Of a stretch of 64,000 nucleotides of DNA, positions 34,350 to 46,152 are shown in pieces (position 1 is the stretch's first letter; each line of letters opens with the position of its first letter). The DNA comes from Candidatus Eiseniibacteriota bacterium. GTDB lineage: Bacteria > Eisenbacteria > RBG-16-71-46 > CAIMUX01. Made by a program: the position numbers and the translations under genes. A model generated the notes under the pieces. The model did no database searches, was not told the origin of the DNA, and saw nothing but the letters and a program-made list of their open reading frames with translations. The stretch lies in NCBI GenBank assembly GCA_903844735.1, contig CAIMUX010000110.1, forward strand, positions 1 to 64,000. Reading direction: 5' to 3'.

Positions 34350-35267
34350 CTAGACTTCCAGGTTCGCCCACACCCTGCGTATGTCGGTCGCCGCCGGCGA
34401 GTTCGACTCGGCCACCGCCGTTTCCTGCATCTGGGCCAGGGTGACCGCCCGGTCGTAACGGATCCGCCCGGCAACACGGGCCCCCGCCTCCCGGGCCTCC
34501 GCCCCGATCCGCTCCGTCATCTCGGGGTTCAGATCCCACCGGTTCACGCACACCATCGCCGGCACTGCAAAGTGCCGAGTGAGGGAAAGAACCCGCGCGA
34601 GATCGTGGGCACCCGACACCGTCGGTTCGGTTACCACGAGCACGAGGGACGCGCCTCCGATCGAAGCAATCACCGGACAGCCGAGGCCGGGTGGGCCGTC
34701 GACAACGATCGTTGTGCGGCCGGACTCCTCGGCGATCCGCCGGGCCTCTCGCCGCACGATGGAGACCAGCTTCCCCGAGTTCTCTCCCCCCACCCCCAGG
34801 CGGGCGTGGACCATCGGGCCGCATCGGGTGTCCGAGATCATCCACTCGCCACAAGTTCGTTCGAGCAGGTCGATCGCCCCGGCCGGGCATACCAGTTGGC
34901 AGACCCCGCACCCTTCACAGGAGAACGGATCGACCCGTAGGGCGATACCGGCCGGACCGGTCGCGAACGACGCCGCAACATCTCCGAGCCTCACCTTCCC
35001 CGCGCGATCATCCGGCACGATTGCGCCGAACCGGCAGCTCTCGGCGCACGCACCGCACCGCCGACATGCGTCAGGGCGGATCCGCGCCTCGCGCCCGCTG
35101 CGGAACTCATGCCGTTCCCGTATGGACGGCGCCAGCACCAGGTGGAGATCGGCCGCATCTACGTCGCAGTCGGCGATCACGGGACGATCCGCCAGGATCG
35201 CGAACGACGCGGCCACGCTCGTCTTCCCCGTCCCTCCCTTGCCGCTGATGATGACCAACTCCTTCAC
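34350..35267 (-). CDS. MinD-type P-loop ATPase with inserted ferredoxin domain (copy 1)
   Basis: SIMIBI/ParA-MinD fold with deviant Walker A ISGKGGTGKTS, switch ADCDVDAAD and IVVDGPPGLGCPVIAS. An inserted 2[4Fe-4S] ferredoxin (about 65-125) has CRRCGACAESC and CEGCGVCQLVC. Relatives (COG1149) occur in anaerobes beside NifX-like proteins and belong to the orange-protein complex of Desulfovibrio. GTG start supported by GAGGGGG 9 nt upstream. 305 residues. Part of a long leftward operon controlled by a putative sigma-54 promoter. Confidence 0.92.
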   Translation of the reverse strand: MKELVIISGKGGTGKTSVAASFAILADRPVIADCDVDAADLHLVLAPSIRERHEFRSGREARIRPDACRRCGACAESCRFGAIVPDDRAGKVRLGDVAASFATGPAGIALRVDPFSCEGCGVCQLVCPAGAIDLLERTCGEWMISDTRCGPMVHARLGVGGENSGKLVSIVRREARRIAEESGRTTIVVDGPPGLGCPVIASIGGASLVLVVTEPTVSGAHDLARVLSLTRHFAVPAMVCVNRWDLNPEMTERIGAEAREAGARVAGRIRYDRAVTLAQMQETAVAESNSPAATDIRRVWANLEV

Positions 35268-35278
35268 GCTTGTCCCCC

Positions 35279-36034
35279 TCAGTGAAGATGGCCCTGACCC
35301 GTGAGCTGCAGCAGGCCGATCGTTCCCACCCCGGCCACGATCAGGACCAGTTCCCACGCGAGGGCATGCAATCCGGACACCTCACGACGGCCCGGGATGA
35401 GGTCGGCCAAAGCGATGTAGAGGAAGCTCGCGGCCGAGAGCGCGAGGAGATACGGAACGAACTGGCGCAGCGGCGCCAGGAGGACATAGGCGAGCACCGC
35501 TCCGAGCAGGGCGGCCAGGCTTGAGAGGGCATTGAACAGAAACGCCCGCCGCCGGGTGTAGCCGCTTGCGAGGAGGATCGCGAAGTCGCCGACTTCCTGG
35601 GGCACCTCGTGCGCGATCACCGCTACGGACGTGGTGATGCCCAACGGGACCGACGTCGCAAATGCCACCGCGATGGCCACGCCGTCCACGAAGTTATGGA
35701 GGGAGTCCCCGATCAGGATCAACGTGCCGGCCTGAGAGTGGATATCGCAGCGGCGCTGGTGACAGTGGCGCCAGATCGCCAGCTTCTCCAGGATGAAGAA
35801 GAGGATGATCCCGGCCAGGATCGCCCCGAGCGCCGTCCGAGTGGAGAGATGGTGCAACGCCTGGGGAATCATACCGAAGAAGGCCGCCCCCAGGAGCGTA
35901 CCGATGGCATACGGGATGAGGTATCGGGTCAACCCGTCCAGGTGCCGGGAGGGGAAACAGAGAACGAGGCCGGCAAGGCCGACGGAGACCAGCGAGCCGA
36001 GCAAGGTGAAGACGACGATCAGCAGAAGAATCAT
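35279..36034 (-). CDS. ZIP family divalent metal transporter (copy 1)
   Basis: Eight membrane helices with the ZIP metal motifs in helices 4 and 5: SLHNFVDGVAIA and IAHEVPQEVGDFAI. A loop WRHCHQRRCDIH rich in His/Cys lies before helix 4. Imports Zn2+, Fe2+ or similar ions. Its start overlaps the stop of the second ferredoxin ATPase (ATGA), so metal import is made together with the cluster ATPases. Confidence 0.92.
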   Translation of the reverse strand: MILLLIVVFTLLGSLVSVGLAGLVLCFPSRHLDGLTRYLIPYAIGTLLGAAFFGMIPQALHHLSTRTALGAILAGIILFFILEKLAIWRHCHQRRCDIHSQAGTLILIGDSLHNFVDGVAIAVAFATSVPLGITTSVAVIAHEVPQEVGDFAILLASGYTRRRAFLFNALSSLAALLGAVLAYVLLAPLRQFVPYLLALSAASFLYIALADLIPGRREVSGLHALAWELVLIVAGVGTIGLLQLTGQGHLH

Positions 36035-36882
36035 CGTGCCGCCGTCCCTTCCGCCTGCTGTACCAGCCGGTCCAGGAATCCAGCGAAGATCCCGCGGTAT
36101 TCCGGGAGAGCGTCCACTACCAACTCTCCCCGAGAGCAGACCTCGGCGATCCGCCGATCCTCGGGGATCTCCAGGAGGATCGGGATCCCCTCATGACGGC
36201 AGAAGGCGTGCACCCTGTCGTCGCCGATCCCCATCCGATTCACCGCCACTCCGAAGGGAAGCCCCAGCTTTCGAGCCAGCTCGACGATCAGTCGCAGGTC
36301 GTGGAGGCCGAAGGGAGTCGGCTCGGTCACGAGGGCCACGTAGTCCACTCCCCGCAAGGCGGATACGACCGGGCAGGAGGTGCCTGGAGGCGCGTCAAGG
36401 ACGGCCAGGCGGTTTTTCCGCAGGTGAGCCTTAACCCGCCTGATGAGGGGCGGCGCGTTCGGCACCCCCACGTCGAGCCGGCCCTGAATCAGGGTCACTT
36501 CACCAGAAACCACCACCTCGACCACCCCGATCCGTCGCTCGATCTCCCGGATGGCCTGCCTCGGGCAGACCCGCAGACAGCCTCCGCACCCGTGGCACAG
36601 CTCTGGAAAGACGAGTGGTGTCGCCTTCAACCCGACGATGGCATGGCACGCACAGAACCGGCTGCAGGCGCCGCAGCCGTCGCAGAGGACCGGGTCAATC
36701 TCAGGGACGGGGACGCACACTGTCTCCAGCAGGCGCGGGGTACCCCTGAGGAAGAGATGATCATTCGGCTCTTCCACGTCGCAGTCCAGGAGCTGCGCCG
36801 GCAGACCCGCCGCCTTGACCAGATTCACGGAGACGGTGGTTTTGCCCGTCCCGCCCTTTCCGGAAGCGACTGCGATGATCAC
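36031..36882 (-). CDS. MinD-type P-loop ATPase with inserted ferredoxin domain (copy 2)
   Basis: Walker A ASGKGGTGKTT, LDCDVEEPNDHLF, inserted ferredoxin with CDGCGACSRFC and CHGCGGCLRVC, then VLDAPPGTSCPVVSALRGVD and TEPTPFGLHDL. 283 residues. Paralogous to the copy encoded just downstream; the pair matches the two ATPases usually found together in ORP-type loci. Probably couples ATP hydrolysis to transfer of a metal cluster or electrons. Confidence 0.93.
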   Translation of the reverse strand: MIIAVASGKGGTGKTTVSVNLVKAAGLPAQLLDCDVEEPNDHLFLRGTPRLLETVCVPVPEIDPVLCDGCGACSRFCACHAIVGLKATPLVFPELCHGCGGCLRVCPRQAIREIERRIGVVEVVVSGEVTLIQGRLDVGVPNAPPLIRRVKAHLRKNRLAVLDAPPGTSCPVVSALRGVDYVALVTEPTPFGLHDLRLIVELARKLGLPFGVAVNRMGIGDDRVHAFCRHEGIPILLEIPEDRRIAEVCSRGELVVDALPEYRGIFAGFLDRLVQQAEGTAAR

Positions 36883-36949: not shown

Positions 36950-37312
36950 CTAGGCCCAGTGACCCTCAACGTCCGCCGATTTCGTCGGCCGCAGGTCCCC
37001 CGCTCGGAAGGCCTCCAGCGCGGCGGACACCGTGGCGGCGTCAGTGGTGAAGACCTGGATCCCAGCCGCGGCGAGAACCCGAAACGCCTTGGGCCCGCAG
37101 TGCCCGGTCACGAGCGCCTTTGCGCCGGATCTGACCACAGCTTCAGCCGCCTGGATTCCGGCGCCCTGAGTCGCCTCCACGTTCTGCCGGTTGTCGAGTA
37201 TCTCGACGGTGTCGTGATCCTGGTCATAGATCAAATAGCGCGGCGCCCGCCCGAAGCGCCCCTCAAGGGGCGCTTCCAGGCTGTTCCCCGAAGTCGTGAA
37301 CACGATCTTCAC
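36950..37312 (-). CDS. NifX/NafY-like dinitrogenase Fe-Mo cofactor-binding family protein
   Basis: A 120-residue single domain of the NifX/NafY/orange-protein (COG1433) group: MKIVFTTSGNSLEAPLEGRF, YLIYDQDHDTVEILDN, and ALVTGHCGPKAFRVLAAAGI. These bind molybdenum-, iron- or copper-containing clusters. No nitrogenase genes are nearby, so an ORP-like role is more likely. Begins just upstream of the ferredoxin ATPase on the same strand. Confidence 0.9.
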   Translation of the reverse strand: MKIVFTTSGNSLEAPLEGRFGRAPRYLIYDQDHDTVEILDNRQNVEATQGAGIQAAEAVVRSGAKALVTGHCGPKAFRVLAAAGIQVFTTDAATVSAALEAFRAGDLRPTKSADVEGHWA

Positions 37313-37444: not shown

Positions 37445-37825
37445 TCACGACCCCTGAGCAGCACCGCACGCGAGTTCTCCGAGCCGCTTCTGGATCGCGT
37501 CCAGCTCCGACTGCAGGGCTTTGGCCTGCCCGGAGAGGAACTCCCTCTCCGAGCCCGGGTCGACCGCTCCGGACGGATCGGTGCCCTGGCGCAACCAGCC
37601 CGGCAGGCCGGTGGCGTGGAAGCAGTGACGCCACCCGCGGTGACCTCCGCCACGCCCCCACGCTCTGCCTTCGGACGACCTAAATCCGCGGCCCCCGCCT
37701 GCGCCGCGCCCCAAGCCAGGCAACGGGTTGGTATAGCCCGGCATCCTGGATCCCGCGCAGTAGCCCGCGGCCCGTCCGGTCCTTGGCCCCACTCCCATCG
37801 GCCCGCTCCTATCTCCTCCCGGCAT
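37445..37825 (-). CDS. DUF5320 family protein
   Basis: Starts with the family signature MPGGDRSGPMGVGPRTGRAA followed by GYCAG, a Gly/Arg/aromatic-rich middle, and a C-terminal coiled-coil segment (GQAKALQSELDAIQKRLGEL). DUF5320 proteins accompany NifX-like and ferredoxin-ATPase genes in anaerobes; function unknown. ATG is 7 nt from AGGAGG. 126 residues. Confidence 0.85.
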   Translation of the reverse strand: MPGGDRSGPMGVGPRTGRAAGYCAGSRMPGYTNPLPGLGRGAGGGRGFRSSEGRAWGRGGGHRGWRHCFHATGLPGWLRQGTDPSGAVDPGSEREFLSGQAKALQSELDAIQKRLGELACGAAQGS

Positions 37826-37875: not shown

Positions 37876-38490
37876 TCAGCGCCGAACAAGGGCCGACCCG
37901 CAGTCCGGGCACCGGCTCTGGGTGCAGGGAACACCCTGCGTGTGCGGCTCTTCGTGCCCGCAAGACGGGCAAACGCAGTGTCCTGCCGGACCCTTGGCGA
38001 AGCCTCCGGCCATGCGGCTTCCGCGGCCTCCGGTTGGACGGCCTTGGCCTCGGCCTTTTCCTGAACCCCCACTAGCTTCCGGTTGTTCTTTTTCGTTCAC
38101 GACCACTTCCTTCTCTCCGAAATTGCGCTCCCCCCGCCGCCGACGATGTCTTCCGCTCTGGCACCCCGGCATCGCGTGGGCAGCTTCCGCCAATCGATCC
38201 TCCAAGAGCGCCCGGATGACGCCCGGCAGATCGCCGATCACGAACGGGACGACACAGATGCCGTAGGCTTCAACAATGGCCCGGATCGGCCGCGAGATCG
38301 CGCCGCAGACCAGGAGATTGACGCCGAGTTCCGCCAGGCGAAGCGCTTTCTCAGCCGGCGTGAACCCTCCCACCGTCTCCTCGGCTTCGGCCACCACCCG
38401 CCCCGAGTCGATCTCAAGGAAACGGATCTGGCCGACGACATCGAAAACCGGTGCGATCCGCCCGTTCCAGGTTGGGAGTGCAGCTTTCAT
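37876..38490 (-). CDS. NifX-like domain fused to a C-terminal zinc ribbon
   Basis: Residues 1-110 are a NifX/orange-protein domain (MKAALPTWNGRIAPVFDVVG, FLEIDSGRVVAEAE, ALRLAELGVNLLVCGAISRP). A basic linker with Gly/Arg repeats follows. The last 35 residues hold two Cys pairs, CPSCGHEEPHTQ and CPDCGSALV, a zinc ribbon. First gene of the long leftward operon, 26 nt after the expected start of a sigma-54 transcript. 204 residues. Confidence 0.87.
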   Translation of the reverse strand: MKAALPTWNGRIAPVFDVVGQIRFLEIDSGRVVAEAEETVGGFTPAEKALRLAELGVNLLVCGAISRPIRAIVEAYGICVVPFVIGDLPGVIRALLEDRLAEAAHAMPGCQSGRHRRRRGERNFGEKEVVVNEKEQPEASGGSGKGRGQGRPTGGRGSRMAGGFAKGPAGHCVCPSCGHEEPHTQGVPCTQSRCPDCGSALVRR

Positions 38491-38526: not shown

Positions 38527-38542
38527 TGCATGCTCCGTGCCG
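38527..38542 (-). promoter_or_regulatory. sigma-54 promoter of the ATPase/NifX operon
   Basis: On the minus strand CGGCACGGAGCATGCA carries GG and GC exactly 10 nt apart; 6 of the 7 positions of the -24 box TGGCACG and 4 of the 5 of the -12 box match. Transcription would begin about 26 nt before the start codon of the NifX-zinc-ribbon gene. Confidence 0.7.
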
Positions 38543-38624
38543 GAAGCCTCCGCGCGAGCCTGCAATGCCGGAGTTGGTTGATACGGAAACGGGTGACGGA
38601 AAGAGGCAGCGTTCGAAGGCGATC

Positions 38625-38837
38625 TCAGGGTCGCGTGACAGCGGCGCTGCATGGATGAGAAGATCGCATCAGCGCGACGGTCTGGCCATCGCAGATCCCG
38701 GCCTCACATCCTGCCATCGGAGGAGAGTGCTCAGGCGGCCGGGCAGCCAGCGTGACCGCCGGTGCCCTGATCGATCCGGCCGCCCGGGCAGAGCACTCGG
38801 AATCGTCGCATGTCTCGCAGGACTCATCGTCCGTCAT
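38625..38837 (-). CDS. possible 70-residue cysteine-rich peptide
   Basis: MTDDESCETCDDSECSARAA at the N terminus resembles the Cys-rich leader of some Mrp/NBP35-type ATPases, but no P-loop follows. Seven cysteines in total. It may be a fragment of a lost ATPase gene or a small metal-binding peptide; ribosome site weak. Confidence 0.35.
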   Translation of the reverse strand: MTDDESCETCDDSECSARAAGSIRAPAVTLAARPPEHSPPMAGCEAGICDGQTVALMRSSHPCSAAVTRP

Positions 38838-38988
38838 TCCGTGGGCCTTTCCGTGTGATCCCCGGCCGGGCGACACCTTCTCGGTGACCTTGCCGACGTG
38901 CGGCCTGGACTGCCGCATGCCACCGGCAACATGGTTGGCAAGGGACGTCGCGGTGACGGGCGCGATCCGGCGTCGGGTCAAGGAACGC

Positions 38989-39615
38989 TCATTGCGACGC
39001 TCGCGCAGACGTGACTTCAAGCAACTCGATCAACTGGTCAGCCGAAAGCTTCGTGTTGACCCTGCGGCCGTTGACAAACGCGCATGGAACCTCGTCAACG
39101 TGGTTGAGAGTCGCCTCCCGCCGGACGGCGGCCAGGCGCTCCATGGTCCTCGCACTCGCGTACGCGATCTCGAAAGCGTCGCCGTCAAGCCCTTTGAGAA
39201 GCCCCCATTTAACGAGCAGACACACCTTGAATTCACCCTGCTTTTCATAGAGATGAAGCAAGTAGGGCCAGAACATGCCTTGGTCGGCTGCCGCATACAT
39301 CGCCCTGCCGCAGGCGAGACGCTCCTCTTCGGCCGGAAAGTACGGCCGCAGATACAGACGGACCTTGCCCCGCAGACGGCCGCCGAGCACCTCCCGGTGG
39401 AGCCTCGGAACAAGCTCCGAGCAGGTCTTGCTGCGGCCGCAGGCGTACAGCACGAGGACGACAGGCGCACTCGAATCCCCGACGCTCATCCGCGGATCCA
39501 GCTCGATCCTGGCTGCCGGCTCCTGGGTTGCGACGTCAGGTTTCGCCAGGGCCGCAACGGTCCCGATGATCATCGAGCAACACAGTCCGAATGACGCGAC
39601 GACTGCTCTTTTCAT
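38989..39615 (-). CDS. exported DsbA-like thioredoxin-fold protein
   Basis: A signal peptide (about 1-25, ending VAALA) is followed by a thioredoxin/DsbA-type domain starting DSSAPVVLVLYACGRSKTC. The usual CxxC is replaced by a CxxxxC pair, so redox chemistry is uncertain. The C-terminal half (KVCLLVKWGLLKGLDGDAFE, EVPCAFVNGRRV) fits the DsbA/FrnE helical insertion and cis-Pro region. ATG with AAGGAGTG 7 nt upstream. 208 residues. Confidence 0.72.
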   Translation of the reverse strand: MKRAVVASFGLCCSMIIGTVAALAKPDVATQEPAARIELDPRMSVGDSSAPVVLVLYACGRSKTCSELVPRLHREVLGGRLRGKVRLYLRPYFPAEEERLACGRAMYAAADQGMFWPYLLHLYEKQGEFKVCLLVKWGLLKGLDGDAFEIAYASARTMERLAAVRREATLNHVDEVPCAFVNGRRVNTKLSADQLIELLEVTSARASQ

Positions 39616-39765
39616 GGTGACACTCCTTGCTTTGGGGCTCGAAACATGAAGCGCGATTGGCCGCACGGAGATCAGTCAGGCTCCTTCCATCGCAGCTTGA
39701 ACAGACGCCCAGAGCGCGCGGATATCCACCGCGGCCAGACCGGCGCCGTGCTCCACCACGGCGCT

Positions 39766-40306
39766 TCATCTCACCTGCGCCGCCGTGACTGAGTCGTCGT
39801 AGCCGACGGTCCCGAGGGCCGGCATGCTCCAGCGAGCGGCCTCGGCGTCGATTTCGGCCGCAACATCCGGGTTGATGCTCGCCTTGTCGATGCAGACCAT
39901 GGCCTTGCCCTTGAGCTGCCGGCAGAGATGGGCGACGCGCTCAGGATCATGCAGGCCGGACACAGTCGGCTCGGCGACCAGAAGCACAACGTCCGCCGCC
40001 TTCACCGAGGCGATCACCGGGCACGAAGTGCCGGGCGGGGCGTCGATCACGACCGTCCCCTCGGCGGGCCCCGCCTCCACAGCACCGCGCGGATCACCGG
40101 GGGCGCATGGGCTCGCCGAGCTTGAGTCGCCCCTGCAGGAAGACCACGTTGCCGGCAACGCTTTCCTCCACGACGCCGGTCGGCCGAGGCTCGTCTCGGA
40201 CGGCACTCGCGGGGCCGCGCCGCAGCACCATCCCCTGCCGCCCCCCGTCCCCGGCCCTCGTCCCCGGCCCTCGTCCCGTCGGCCCCATTCCATTTCTTCC
40301 GGGCAT
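39766..40306 (-). pseudogene. decayed MinD-type ATPase (copy 3) joined to a DUF5320 N terminus
   Basis: Reading leftward: a DUF5320 start (MPGRNGMGPTGRGPGTRAGD), then an ATPase middle fragment (VVFLQGRLKLGEPM), then VIDAPPGTSCPVIASVKAAD and AEPTVSGLHD to a C terminus ending YDDSVTAAQV. The three pieces lie in different frames; at least two single-base losses near 40,050-40,100 are needed to join them. Walker A and the ferredoxin domain are gone. It is preceded by its own sigma-54-like promoter, so it was once a separate transcription unit. Confidence 0.8.
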
Positions 40307-40401
40307 TTCCGTCCTCCCTTCTTGCCCCTGGTCGGGAGCTCGCCTTGTCCATGTCCGGCCGCCCGGGCCGCGTTTGCGCGCATTTTCACCAGCCTGTTGC
40401 C

Positions 40402-40417
40402 TGCAGAAAGCATGCCG
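40402..40417 (-). promoter_or_regulatory. second sigma-54-type promoter, before the decayed ATPase
   Basis: Minus-strand CGGCATGCTTTCTGCA has GG and GC 10 nt apart with GGCA and TGCA cores. It lies about 95 nt before the DUF5320-type start codon, which has GGGAGG. Weaker match than the first. Confidence 0.5.
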
Positions 40418-40759
40418 CGGGCGAAGTGACCGGCGTATGCGCTGCAAAAGCAGCGAATTGGGAGCAATCGGCGGCGGACGCGCCGGCGGTAGAGTCGCGC
40501 TCCGGCGACTCCGCCGTCTGCCGGAACCGCAGAAGGGAGGCCTCGGAGCGCCCGCCCAATCGCGGAGCGGGTTGATTCGGTGACGTATGGAACTTGCTGA
40601 GGCCAAGATCTTTGATCAGAGTTGGTCGTCGTAACCTCATCAACGCATCAGTGAACAAACCCAACGAATCGGGACAATGGCGGGCATCCGCGACCGCATT
40701 CCGGGTCGCGTGCGCGGGCGCCATGAAAACCGGAACCCGCGTCAGCGCGATGTATCGAG
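40418..40759. other. 340-bp gap holding no gene
   Basis: I see no credible gene. GGTTGATTCGG at 40570-40580 matches GGTTGATACGG at 38576-38586, both upstream of the two sigma-54-type promoters; candidate activator site. Confidence 0.4.
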
Positions 40760-40963
40760 TCATTCCTCCATCGGAGGGTTCTTCTTCCGCGCCAGGAAGA
40801 GCCGGTGGTGCTCCGGCCCTTCACGGATCACCGCCTTCCCGCACTTCGGGCATCGCGCCTGTCTGCGCCGCGTGCCCGATTGATGGGGGACGGTAGTATC
40901 GCATTTTAGACATGTGCGCCTGCCGCCCGGCCCAAGCCTTCGTTCGCATGACCGTTCATTCAC
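40760..40963 (-). CDS. small zinc-ribbon protein
   Basis: 67 residues with two Cys pairs (CLKCDTTVPHQSGTRRRQ, then CPKCGKAVIREG), the same ribbon that ends the NifX fusion at 37,876. Highly basic elsewhere. Start overlaps the stop of the sigma-54 regulator gene by 8 nt, so it is probably co-translated with it. May bind RNA, DNA or a partner of the NifX proteins. Confidence 0.65.
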   Translation of the reverse strand: MNERSCERRLGPGGRRTCLKCDTTVPHQSGTRRRQARCPKCGKAVIREGPEHHRLFLARKKNPPMEE

Positions 40964-42413
40964 CCCGCTCGCCGCCGGAAACCGCTATCCCTCGAGGCTT
41001 GATGGCGCGCGCGTGGCCCGCTCCGGGCCTGCCGGAGCGCCCGTCCTTCAGGGGAAGGTCCAGACCCAATCTCTTCACCTTGCGAAAGAGGGTGCTCTTG
41101 TGGATACCCAAGGCCCGAGCGGCCGCCTCCCTGCTCCCACCATGGCGTTCCAGGGCGGTGCGAATCTCCTGGGCGTCGAGGAACTCGCGGGCGATCCGGA
41201 TGTCGGAAAAACCGCCGGATGGAAACCCACGGCCGCGCGCGGTCAGCTCGTCGGGCAGATGCTCGATTCCGATGAGTCCGTTGCCGCAGAGGATGAACGC
41301 CCGCTCGATGACGTTTTCCAGCTCGCGCACATTGCCGGGCCAGTCGTGGGCCATGAGGAGGGAGAGCGCCTCGACTGCGATCCCCCGGACCGACCGGCGC
41401 TGGAGCCGATTGAATCGGGCGATGAACTCGTCGACCAGGAGGGGGATGTCCTCCTTGCGCCGACGTAGGGGCGGCAGCTCCACGCGCACGACGTTTACCC
41501 GGTAGTAGAGGTCCTCGCGGAATGCGCCCGCGCGGGTTCGTTCGGCCAGGTCACGGTTCGTGGCCACGATGATCCGGGCATCGGTGGTCTGCGAGCAGGT
41601 GGCACCGAGGGGCTCGTAGGATCGCTCCTGGAGCACCCGCAGGAGTCGAACCTGCACGGCCGGGCTCACCTCGCCGATCTCGTCTAAGAAGAGCGTCCCT
41701 CCCTGGGCCAACGCGAAGCGTCCCGGCTTGTCCTTGTTGGCCCCTGTGAAGGCCCTGGCCTTGTAGCCGAACAGCTCCGATTCAAGAAGGGTGTCGGGAA
41801 GCGCCCCGCAGTTCACCCCCAGGAAGGGACCGCCGCGCCGGGAGCTAAGGGAGTGGATCGTCCGGGCGATCACCTCCTTTCCGGTCCCCGTCTCCCCGAG
41901 AATCAGCACCGTGCTCGGGCTCGTCGCAATTGCGGGCAGGACCTCGAAGATTCTCTGCATGAGGAGGCTCCTGCTGACGAGATCCCCGATCCGGAAACGC
42001 CCCTCCAGTTCCTGCCTGAGGGCCTCGACCTCGCTCAAGTCACGGAAGGTCTCGGCACCGCCGATCACCTTCCCCGTGGGATCGCGAAGGACGGCGGTGG
42101 AGACACTGATGGGAAGGTCGGCCCCGTCGGAGTCGACAATGTAGCCGGACCTCCCGATGATCGGCCGGCCGGTCTTCAGCGTCTGCCGAAGTGCGCACTC
42201 CGCCTCGCAGAGGCTGCAGTGGAAAACCTCCGAGCAGAAACGGCCGAGCGCCTCGTCGCGGGAGATGCCGGTGATCTCCTCAGCCGCCCGGTTGAAGGAT
42301 GTGATCCGCCACTCGAGGTCGACCGTGAAGACACCATCGGAGATGCTCTCGAGAATGGCATCTGTCGCTGTCAGAACGGTAGCCACCGAGCGTTTCCTGG
42401 ACCTCGCCGTCAT
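40956..42413 (-). CDS. sigma-54-dependent regulator with Cys-containing PAS domain
   Basis: A PAS domain (about 20-125: ISDGVFTVDLEWRITSFNRA) holds a Cys cluster FCSEVFHCSLCEAECAL that could bind a metal or cluster or sense redox state. AAA+ (about 155-395) has GETGTGKEV, GGTLFLDEIGEV and WPGNVRELENVIERA; the sigma-54 loop is RAFTGA instead of GAFTGA. Fis-type HTH GSREAAARALGIHKSTLFRK ends the protein. Similar regulators control ORP operons in Desulfovibrio, and sigma-54 promoters are present before the ATPase/NifX genes here. The ATG chosen has GGAG upstream; another start lies 4 codons earlier. About 485 residues. Confidence 0.92.
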   Translation of the reverse strand: MTARSRKRSVATVLTATDAILESISDGVFTVDLEWRITSFNRAAEEITGISRDEALGRFCSEVFHCSLCEAECALRQTLKTGRPIIGRSGYIVDSDGADLPISVSTAVLRDPTGKVIGGAETFRDLSEVEALRQELEGRFRIGDLVSRSLLMQRIFEVLPAIATSPSTVLILGETGTGKEVIARTIHSLSSRRGGPFLGVNCGALPDTLLESELFGYKARAFTGANKDKPGRFALAQGGTLFLDEIGEVSPAVQVRLLRVLQERSYEPLGATCSQTTDARIIVATNRDLAERTRAGAFREDLYYRVNVVRVELPPLRRRKEDIPLLVDEFIARFNRLQRRSVRGIAVEALSLLMAHDWPGNVRELENVIERAFILCGNGLIGIEHLPDELTARGRGFPSGGFSDIRIAREFLDAQEIRTALERHGGSREAAARALGIHKSTLFRKVKRLGLDLPLKDGRSGRPGAGHARAIKPRGIAVSGGERGE

Positions 42414-42432
42414 GATGCTCCACACCCACCGG

Positions 42433-42607: not shown

Positions 42608-43321
42608 TTACGGCGTCAGAATCTTGCTGAGGACTTCCTCCTTGGAAATCTCCTTCGTGCAGAAGAACCAGTCGCGGCAAGTGACACCCGCCTGTTTGCC
42701 TTCCATCCGGTCTTTGGCCACACCGCAGGAACCTGCTGTCGGGACGATGACTTCGTCGCCGGGTCGCCAATCAGCGGGGGTGGCGACAGAGAAGGCATCC
42801 GCCGTCTTGAGCGCGACCACGACTCGGTAGAGCTCGTCGAAGTTGCGGCCCAGACTCAGCGGATAGTAGATGATGGTGCGGATCATGCCCTTGGGGTCAA
42901 TAACAAAGACGGCGCGGACCGCCTTCGTGCTCGACTCGCCCGGTTGCATCATGCCATAGGCCTTGGCCACCTCCATGGTGATGTCCTCGATCAGGGGGAA
43001 CGTCACTTCGACATCCTTCATGCCCTTGTATTCGATCTTCTCCTTGATGGTTCGTAGCCAGGCGATGTGGCTGTACAGGCCGTCCACAGAAAGTCCGACG
43101 AGCTTGCAGCCCAATTCGGTGAACTTGGGCTCGAGGGTCGCAAAGGTCATGAACTCCGAGGTGCAGACTGGGGTGAAGTCGGCCGGGTGGCTGAAGAGGA
43201 TGACCCAGCTCCCTTCATAGTCGGCGGGAAAGGTGATCTCGCCTTGGGTGGTTACCGCCTTGAAGGCGGGGGCTTTGTCCCCGATACGGGGCATGGTGAC
43301 GATGCTTCCACCTGTTTCCAT
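42608..43321 (-). CDS. peroxiredoxin (Prx6/AhpC-TSA type)
   Basis: Reduces peroxides with the peroxidatic Cys in HPADFTPVCTSEF (about residue 53). The C-terminal extension with GSCGVAKD, GVTCRDWFFC matches the archaeal-type Prx6 group, whose extra cysteines resolve the sulfenate. ATG preceded by AGAGGA; a longer frame upstream lacks this. 237 residues. Antioxidant protection for an oxygen-sensitive cluster system is a reasonable inference. Confidence 0.94.
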   Translation of the reverse strand: METGGSIVTMPRIGDKAPAFKAVTTQGEITFPADYEGSWVILFSHPADFTPVCTSEFMTFATLEPKFTELGCKLVGLSVDGLYSHIAWLRTIKEKIEYKGMKDVEVTFPLIEDITMEVAKAYGMMQPGESSTKAVRAVFVIDPKGMIRTIIYYPLSLGRNFDELYRVVVALKTADAFSVATPADWRPGDEVIVPTAGSCGVAKDRMEGKQAGVTCRDWFFCTKEISKEEVLSKILTP

Positions 43322-43341
43322 AGCGCTGTCCTCTTTTCTCA

Positions 43342-43361
43342 ACATGTGCATGAGCACATGT
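43342..43361. promoter_or_regulatory. perfect 8-bp inverted repeat upstream of the peroxiredoxin gene
   Basis: ACATGTGC and GCACATGT flank ATGA, 20 nt before the start codon. A likely operator for a dimeric regulator that controls the peroxiredoxin gene. Confidence 0.5.
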
Positions 43362-43983: not shown

Positions 43984-44054
43984 AATTCTGAAGACATAAG
44001 CCTGTCCAGAGCTTTTTCTCGCTCCGGCAGGCGGAGGGAGCTGTCGTTTTGCCC

Positions 44055-44083
44055 TTGACACATAATGAACCTATGTCCACAAT
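44055..44083 (+). promoter_or_regulatory. downstream promoter P2 of the DUF134 operon with operator-like spacer
   Basis: TTGACA and CACAAT are 17 nt apart and the spacer is CATAATGAACCTATGTC, with CATA/TATG dyad ends. A start near 44090 would leave a leader of only about 13 nt containing the GGGAGGT ribosome site. Confidence 0.55.
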
Positions 44084-44102
44084 GCCATCGGGAGGTGCGG
44101 GA

Positions 44103-44486
44103 ATGCCCAGACCATTCTGCAATCGAATCATTGCCGGGAGGCCGGCCGTCTCGATCTTCAAGCCGATTGGCGTCCCAGTCACAGAACTCGAAGAGATCGT
44201 GATGACCCTCGACGAGTTCGAAGCTCTCCGGCTCGCAGATCTGGACGGGCTCTACCAGGAGCAGGCGGCTGAGAAGATGAAGATCTCCAGGCCGACCTTC
44301 AGCAGAATCGTCGAATCGGCCCGCCGAAAAGTGGCCGACGTGCTTGTTCACGGAAAGGCCCTCCGGATCGAGGGTGGTCCTATTCACCAGGGAGCCCGTC
44401 GATGCTGCCGGTTGCATGACCGAGCGGCGAAGCGATCACAAGCAGACAACCGCGGCAGGACTCTGCCAGAGGAGAAATCTCGATGA
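44103..44486 (+). CDS. DUF134 family DNA-binding protein
   Basis: Begins MPRPFCNRIIAGRPAVSIFK, the DUF134 pattern, with a sigma-70 region 4-like HTH: TLDEFEALRLADLDGLYQEQ then ISRPTFSRIVESARRKVADV. DUF134 genes regularly accompany NifX-like genes and are suspected regulators. Start ATG with GGGAGGT upstream. 127 residues; its stop overlaps the following NifX gene. Two promoters with identical spacer motifs suggest self-regulation. Confidence 0.88.
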   Translation: MPRPFCNRIIAGRPAVSIFKPIGVPVTELEEIVMTLDEFEALRLADLDGLYQEQAAEKMKISRPTFSRIVESARRKVADVLVHGKALRIEGGPIHQGARRCCRLHDRAAKRSQADNRGRTLPEEKSR

Positions 44487-44857
44487 ACATCTGCATCCCC
44501 GTCAACGAAGACCAAGGATTCAGGAGCCCGGTGTGCGCGCATTTCGGTTCGGCGCCGTTTTTCATGATCGTCGACACCGAGAGTGGAGCCTGTCGGGCCA
44601 TCCCGAACACCAATCAGCACCACGGCCACGGAATGTGCACGCCGCTGGCAGCCCTTGATGGAGAGAGCATCGACGGCATGGCCGTCGGGGGTATCGGCAT
44701 GGGCGCGGTGAACAAGCTGATCGCCGCAGGCATCCAGGTGTTCCTTTCGGAGCAGTCGACGGTGGAGGAGACCGTAAATGCCTACAAGGCCGGAACACTC
44801 CGCCTCGTGACACCCGAGACCGCCTGCGGCCAGCATCACGGACACGACGGCCACTAG
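44483..44857 (+). CDS. NifX/orange-protein-like protein with His-rich ends
   Basis: Another COG1433-type domain: MNICIPVNEDQGFRSPVCAH, FFMIVDTESG and MAVGGIGMGAVNKLIAAGIQ. An inserted NQHHGHGMCTPL loop and the C terminus CGQHHGHDGH add possible metal ligands not found in the other two copies. ATG overlaps the DUF134 stop (ATGA). 124 residues. Confidence 0.9.
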   Translation: MNICIPVNEDQGFRSPVCAHFGSAPFFMIVDTESGACRAIPNTNQHHGHGMCTPLAALDGESIDGMAVGGIGMGAVNKLIAAGIQVFLSEQSTVEETVNAYKAGTLRLVTPETACGQHHGHDGH

Positions 44858-44961: not shown

Positions 44962-46152
44962 ATGCATACGAACCACAAGGGTTTCCAGACGAAGCTCGTC
45001 CATGCGGGCGCCCCGAAGGATCCGTACGGAAGCGTCGTCACACCCATCTATCAGACGTCCACGTTCTCGTTCGAGAACACCCAGGTCGGGGCGGATCGCT
45101 TCGCCGGCAAGGCGGACGGGTACATCTACACCAGGATCGGCAATCCCACCATCCGGGCTCTTGAGGATTGCGTCGCGGCGTTGGAGGAAGGCGTTGGCGG
45201 CATAGCCACGAGCTCCGGGATGGGGGCCGTGTGCACCGTCTGCCTCGCACTTCTCGACCGCGACACGCACGTGGTCAGCACCGCCTCTGTCTACGGGCCT
45301 TCGCGCACGTTGATGGAGAAGCATCTGGGGCGGTTCGGTGTGTCATCTTCGTTCGTCGACACCTCCGACCTCGAGGCCGTGCGCCATGCCCTCCGGAAGA
45401 ACACGCGGATGATCTATGTCGAGACGCCGTCCAACCCGATGATGCAGATCACGGACATCCGCGCCATGGCTGATCTGGCGCACGCCCAAGGCGCGCTTCT
45501 GGTTGTCGACAGCACCTTCGCGTCTCCCTATCTTCAGAAGCCATTATCCATGGACGCGGATGTCGTCCTGCACTCGGTGACCAAGTTCATCAATGGTCAC
45601 GCGGACGTCGTCGGAGGGATCCTCATCGCTCGGGACAAGGCCGTCTACCGGCGGGTGCGCGATGTCATGGTCATCACCGGCTGCAACATGGATCCACATC
45701 AGGCATTCCTGGTCCACCGAGGTCTCAAGACACTCGCCCTTCGCATCGAGCGGGCGCAAGAAAGCGCGATGAAGATCGCCAGCTGGATCGAATCGCGCGA
45801 TGAGGTTGCCTGGGTTCGCTACACCGGCCTGTCCTCCCATCCGCAGTACGAGCTGGCTCGACGTCAGATGAGAGGTCCGGGTTCGATGATCAGCTTCGAA
45901 CTGAAGGGCGGGTTCGAGGCAGGAAAAACCCTCATGAACAAGGTCCGGCTGGCAGTACTGGCCGTCTCTCTGGGTGGGGTCGAGACCCTAATCGAGCATC
46001 CCGCCTCGATGACCCACGCCGGACTCCCGGCGGAGGAGCGGCTGAAAGCGGGCATCACAGACGGCCTAGTCAGGTACTCGGTCGGAATCGAGGATCCCGA
46101 CGATCTCCTTGGGGATCTGGAGCAGGCGCTCGCATCGGATCAGGCGCATTGA
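44962..46152 (+). CDS. methionine gamma-lyase-like PLP enzyme (Cys/Met metabolism family)
   Basis: Fold type I trans-sulfuration enzyme. PLP lysine in HSVTKFINGHADVVGG, phosphate/PLP contacts in YTRIGNPTIRALED, ATSSGMGA, YVETPSNPMMQITDI and LGGVETLIEHPASMTH. This combination is nearest to methionine gamma-lyase, which releases methanethiol, but the Cys of the LYGCT motif of Pseudomonas enzymes is replaced (VYGPS), so cystathionine lyase or O-acetylhomoserine sulfhydrylase activity is possible. 396 residues, normal. Could supply sulfide or methanethiol; runs convergent with the thiM remnant. Confidence 0.9.
   Translation: MHTNHKGFQTKLVHAGAPKDPYGSVVTPIYQTSTFSFENTQVGADRFAGKADGYIYTRIGNPTIRALEDCVAALEEGVGGIATSSGMGAVCTVCLALLDRDTHVVSTASVYGPSRTLMEKHLGRFGVSSSFVDTSDLEAVRHALRKNTRMIYVETPSNPMMQITDIRAMADLAHAQGALLVVDSTFASPYLQKPLSMDADVVLHSVTKFINGHADVVGGILIARDKAVYRRVRDVMVITGCNMDPHQAFLVHRGLKTLALRIERAQESAMKIASWIESRDEVAWVRYTGLSSHPQYELARRQMRGPGSMISFELKGGFEAGKTLMNKVRLAVLAVSLGGVETLIEHPASMTHAGLPAEERLKAGITDGLVRYSVGIEDPDDLLGDLEQALASDQAH

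Follow-up and report, generated by a model that had tools for sequence, protein, structure and literature searches.

A putative local sigma-54 switch for an orange-protein-like gene cluster in a Candidatus Eiseniibacteriota bacterium

Which DNA site might guide a sigma-54 activator to the promoters beside its own gene? The question is raised by a locus in the 64,000-nucleotide stretch analysed here (the window), where two −24/−12-like elements face leftward next to an activator gene. We consider it likely that a PAS-AAA+-Fis activator, acting through palindromes, runs the locus as a local sigma-54 switch that controls orange-protein (ORP)-like genes. The activator (40956-42425) would bind AGTWGC-N6-GCWACT palindromes upstream of the two minus-strand −24/−12 promoters; once bound, it would loop to sigma-54 RNA polymerase and remodel it, turning on the leftward genes. 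Promoter A would start the intact NifX-DUF5320-NifX-MinD-ZIP-MinD-NifU run. Downstream of promoter B there now lie frameshifted remnants of another DUF5320/MinD copy, together with a DsbA-like gene. From the sequence we infer binding, activation, co-transcription and signal sensing by the PAS domain.

The −24/−12 elements and the genes behind them

The genes and promoter elements of the locus are listed below from left to right; all lie on the minus strand.

34350-35267, minus: second MinD/Mrp-like ATPase with ferredoxin motifs (domain match; same order in relatives)
36031-36882, minus: MinD/Mrp-like ATPase with ferredoxin motifs (domain match; same order in relatives)
36950-37312, minus: NifX-like protein, Nitro_FeMo-Co (domain match; same order in relatives)
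37445-37825, minus: DUF5320 protein (domain match; same order in relatives)
37876-38490, minus: first gene after A, a NifX-like (ORP-like) protein that has a C-terminal zinc ribbon (PF02579 match falls short of the cut-off; relatives have orthologues at this position)
38527-38542, minus: candidate sigma-54 promoter A, −24/−12 element CGGCACGGAGCATGCA, 36 bases ahead of the start of the first NifX-like gene
38989-39666, minus: DsbA-like thioredoxin-fold protein, intact, behind B
39697-40306, minus: degenerate sequence behind B, with a DUF5320-like start and MinD remnants spread over two frames and interrupted by a stop (E 4e-28)
40402-40417, minus: candidate sigma-54 promoter B, −24/−12 element CGGCATGCTTTCTGCA, top sigma-54 match of the window
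40823-40933, minus: vestiges of a NifX-like C-terminal zinc ribbon, in the stretch that separates the activator from promoter B (E 5e-6)
40956-42425, minus: sigma-54 activator with PAS domain, AAA+ domain with loop RAFTGA, and Fis-type HTH with helix HKSTLFRK

The two GG-N10-GC elements described in the first-pass annotation were both found in place, and in each the GG and GC, 10 bases apart, sit in a TGGCAC-N5-TTGC-like context. By sigma-54 weights that are approximations, A ranked 4th and B 1st among the 1384 GG-N10-GC sites of the window; the same weights lie behind the calls of sigma-54-like sites in relatives and control loci and behind the pair and phasing tests below. When both strands of the window were scanned with a matrix built from 29 sites of relatives, A ranked 6th and B again 1st. 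Random sequence yielded, per 64 kb, 0.1 matches to this matrix as good as B and 2.95 as good as A, so the −24/−12 element of A is not significant on sequence alone. Together with their surroundings, described below, both elements are probably sigma-54 promoters of the adjoining activator.

Relatives were collected as 80 activator loci from named genomes, together with loci from kin genomes, and the 45 loci whose activators are 51-79% identical to that of the window (L038-L082) were counted as relatives. Their gene order is activator, operators, promoter, NifX-like, DUF5320, NifX-like, MinD, MinD, with NifU, thioesterase or peroxiredoxin sometimes added to the operon. The window carries the same series of genes leftward from 38490, and the 36 bases between promoter A and the first NifX-like gene are much like the layout in relatives.

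Three further groups of genes lie near the cluster. A peroxiredoxin gene (42608-43357, minus strand) is found upstream of the activator, and relatives of it, 79-82% identical, occur inside the clusters of L045 and L056. A pair encoding DUF134 and NifX-like proteins (44049-44857, plus strand) faces right, and none of the best operator matches of the window precedes it; the same pair adjoins the activator in L069 and L076. A cystathionine gamma-synthase-like gene (44962-46152, plus strand) follows, and a 73% identical gene lies between two MinD genes in L125 (9036-10214).

A palindrome in register with sigma-54-like sites

In most relative loci a strong sigma-54-like site was found 98-384 bases past the end of the activator match. 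When the stretches between the activator end and this site were read, a repeated palindrome was evident, with the consensus AGTWGC-N6-GCWACT. Palindromes were counted in 43 of the 45 relative loci (two with less than 150 bp after the match were left out) and in 30 of 35 control loci of other activators, a list picked by hand. Perfect copies of GTNGC-N6-GCNAC occurred 28 times in 200 bp from each of the 43 relative loci, the window being left out of the count, as against 0.1 in shuffled sequence. With at most one mismatch allowed, 29 of the 43 loci had a palindrome (3.04 expected). The 30 loci of other activators had no perfect palindrome, and a single locus had one with at most one mismatch.

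The position of the palindrome is also restricted. A sigma-54-like site preceded by an operator some 58-138 bp away was present in 35/45 relatives, 20/30 Desulfovibrionales relatives and 5/35 loci of other activators, and a pair of operators 31-34 bp apart in 22/45, 10/30 and 0/35 respectively; in 10 of the 45 relatives the operator-promoter combination was absent. The operator usually lies some 95 bp ahead of the sigma-54 site. The relatives L040 and L058 each have one more promoter, in front of divergent MinD genes, and this one has just one operator, 81.5 bases away.

The window holds three such putative operators:

38630-38645: proximal operator of A, GTCGC-N6-GCGGC, 1/8 mismatches, centre 95.5 bp upstream of the promoter
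38663-38678: distal operator of A, 1/8 mismatches, centre 128.5 bp upstream, 33 bp from the proximal operator
40493-40510: operator of B, AGTCGC-N6-GCGACT, perfect, centre 84.5 bp upstream

By matrix score the B operator is the best in the window, the distal A operator 3rd and the proximal A operator 31st. The best score, 13.6, falls within the range of maxima obtained from random sequence for a window this rich in GC (8.4-16.0), and the case for the operators is therefore carried by register rather than by score. The palindrome pair at A is the single case of 31-34 bp spacing in 64 kb and stands in canonical register with the promoter. Among 1377 GG-N10-GC sites of the window, A alone had both operator positions filled; of 5444 sites in control loci, 0 had. 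A random site had as good an operator 70-135 bp away with a frequency of 0.0027 for the operator of A and 0.00095 for that of B. The two promoters had been picked in the first-pass annotation without knowledge of this palindrome. At promoter A the arrangement is that of the ORP-linked clade, with a sigma-54 site that has operators in register ahead of it and a NifX-like gene behind it. The in-register operators at both elements lend support to the earlier proposal that two sigma-54 promoters would be served by the adjacent activator, acting locally.

Distances between operator and promoter were compared in 35 loci, using perfect operators only and dropping the near-copies L058, L064, L075, L152 and L159. 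They cluster near 83, 95, 115 and 127 bases, with few between. The resultant was 0.49 at a period near 10.75, and 4 of 5000 jittered sets were as phased, a figure that is not a strict probability because the 35 loci share descent. With periods of 10.5-11, none of the three distances in the window departs from the mean phase by more than 2.4 bp. Such phasing fits an activator that would contact the polymerase only when bound on one side of the helix.

The perfect 18-base form, AGTNGC-N6-GCNACT, occurs six times in the window's own genome. Only the copy at 40493-40510 has a sigma-54-like site at canonical distance; the other five have none (score of at least 8) 58-138 bp away. The 16-base pattern alone was rejected as a genome-wide marker, being too frequent (116 places), and the genome-wide regulon search took in perfect operators only. 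As far as perfect operators tell, the circuit is thus private within this genome, as had been suggested. The suggestion does not extend further: the module of regulator, operator and operon recurs in loci labelled with a dozen or so phyla, and the circuit is therefore not unique to an island.

The activator and alternative readings

The activator gene was confirmed as an open reading frame at 40956-42425 on the minus strand with PAS, Sigma54_activat and HTH_8 domains; its matches to PF00158 (8e-65) and HTH_8 (3.1e-9) are those of an enhancer-binding protein. The genome has 40 matches to the sigma-54 activator domain. In a quick tree, drawn open and without bootstrap, the activator fell in a branch of 74 rows with 99% SH-aLRT, which places it in the ORP-linked clade, and the Desulfovibrionales activators with a GAFTDA loop fell outside this branch. 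Its recognition helix retains the HK[ST]T-FR type typical of the clade. His442 was present in 71 of 73 sequences of at least 60% identity, the other two having gaps, and the GAFTDA set has Ser, Thr or Asn at this position in 13 of 14 (one gap).

The loop that contacts sigma-54 reads RAFTGA (about 41745-41760, minus strand; first codon AGG, Arg224), keeping five of the six letters of GAFTGA with the first Gly replaced. The first residue is Gly in 131 of 132 relatives and Ser in the remaining one, so RAFTGA is unique among 133 sequences. Within the genome itself, loops were read in 22 of 30 loci, and only that of the window's activator lacks the first Gly. Because of this loop the activity of the activator is uncertain here, and full activity of this copy is doubtful. 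The change may be damage, error or adaptation.

There is accordingly some chance, though a minor one, that the locus is a relic, its operators and promoters inherited and still to be discerned, its activator no longer able to remodel sigma-54 owing to the Gly-to-Arg change, and its cluster in decay. Besides the rarity of RAFTGA, this reading has in its favour the remains of NifX, DUF5320 and MinD genes between activator and operon, and a report, in the available part of PMC2941729, that changes in GAFTGA severely impair activation in most activators. Against it, the NifX, DUF5320 and MinD genes behind A and the activator gene itself are all full-length open reading frames, and the recognition helix is intact. 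Several odd loops in D. vulgaris are counted as functional in the available part of PMC4641369, and AGG for GGG, a change of one base, could be an assembly error.

The remains just mentioned also bear on promoter B. The gap between activator and first NifX-like gene is about 2.5 kb in the window, as against about 0.2 kb in the class kin L124 and L125, and it contains the NifX zinc-ribbon remains, promoter B, frameshifted DUF5320/MinD remains and the open DsbA-like gene. Since the remains behind B are frameshifted, B would drive a defunct copy and may drive the DsbA-like gene too. A reading in which both the match at B and its palindrome are accidental, left over in decayed sequence, and A alone is real, we regard as improbable. 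It would agree with the broken genes behind B and with the single canonical promoter in L124 and L125; it must also explain, however, why the top-ranked sigma-54 match and the top-ranked operator of the 64 kb fall there in register, and why a ribosome-binding-site-like stretch and a DUF5320-like start come next.

Two rpoN genes, differing from each other, are present in the genome (L006 on contig C121 and L007 on contig C67), as in all three searched genomes of its family. Across 39 searched genomes, seven have two copies (G000, G001, G002, G004, G007, G009 and G019), 31 have one and one has none. A bolder reading would have activator, phased operator pair and NifX/DUF5320/MinD operon moving between phyla as a sealed module of fixed geometry, with RAFTGA adapted to one sigma-54 paralogue and not damaged; we hold this to be very improbable.

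The shared motif named in the first-pass annotation, GGTTGATWCGG, does occur exactly upstream of both elements (GGTTGATACGG at 38576-38586 and GGTTGATTCGG at 40570-40580). Its own 5.4-Mb genome has five exact copies, against three of a reversed-pattern control and about 5.2 expected at equal base use, and the window has 28 copies with at most two mismatches (28.0 expected from shuffles). Among 400 random pairs of 200-bp stretches of the window, 175 had an 11-mer in common (one mismatch or fewer) when only the same strand was compared and 264 when either strand was allowed, pairs less than 400 bp apart having been skipped yet still counted in the 400. The gap to the promoter is 34 bp at one element and 153 bp at the other. 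Of the three copies outside the window, one (L003) is near a sigma-54-like site (score of at least 9 within 260 bp), and the motif was found in 7 of 123 loci examined, all from the own genome and none from other genomes. As the activator's binding site the motif can almost certainly be dismissed, despite its exact presence at both places, since its genome count equals chance, stretches often share such an 11-mer, it is absent from the examined loci of other genomes and has no fixed distance to the promoters, and a different conserved operator, in register with both promoters in the window, is present.

Relation to described systems

The preferred reading, a local switch acting through AGTWGC-N6-GCWACT, has its closest described case in the orp operons of Desulfovibrio vulgaris Hildenborough. 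According to the available parts of PMC3897727 and PMC6345978, orp1 and orp2 are controlled by DVU2106 together with sigma-54, and palindromic sites and IHF also take part. Judged from these and from the available part of PMC4641369, in both systems ORP, NifX-like and MinD/Mrp genes adjoin a one-component sigma-54 activator; palindromic sites for the activator, sigma-54 promoters and two promoters for one activator are likewise common to both, as predicted here from sequence. The layouts differ in that orp1 and orp2 are divergent, whereas both promoters of the window face left with the activator upstream.

The activators differ as well. The loop of DVU2106 is given as GAFTDA in the available part of PMC4641369, and the DVU2106 type was equated with the Desulfovibrionales GAFTDA rows through this loop alone. 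The window's activator has neither that loop nor the helix of that clade and is thus not a DVU2106 orthologue in this sense; it has RAFTGA, another recognition helix and a separate clade, and its ORP-linked group is, on sequence comparison, a sister clade to the DVU2106 type. In 12 of 14 GAFTDA loci the AGTWGC-N6-GCWACT operator was absent from the sigma-54 sites; in the remaining two it occurs next to a second activator. At the Desulfovibrionales loci L175 (10664) and L177 (10538) the paired form of this operator comes after a second GAFTDA activator of 44-45% identity, and its copies stand some 82 and 113 bases away from a sigma-54-like site. In domain order and in its sigma-54 interaction domain the window's activator resembles PAS-AAA-Fis enhancer-binding proteins of the NtrC family, from which it differs by the HK[ST]T-FR helix of its clade and, in this copy, by RAFTGA.

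A description of the AGTWGC-N6-GCWACT operator was not found in searches of an openly licensed library, which for the clade outside Desulfovibrio gave only D. vulgaris papers as relevant. Six ORP-related words looked for in a paper on sigma-54 in Clostridiales are all absent, and a 2025 sigma-54 survey does not mention NifX, DUF134 or molybdenum cofactor.

Sequence elements, spacing, conservation and recognition helix together provide a testable operator, often paired 31-34 bp apart and about 95 bp from the −24/−12 element, for widespread and little-studied activators. This activator group adjoins orange-protein, NifX and MinD genes, mostly in uncultured bacteria. The RAFTGA loop offers a natural test of the role of the first Gly in GAFTGA. 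Since loci labelled with so many phyla have this geometry, the regulator, its site and the operon may well travel as a unit; if they do, the regulon would be predictable in metagenomes.
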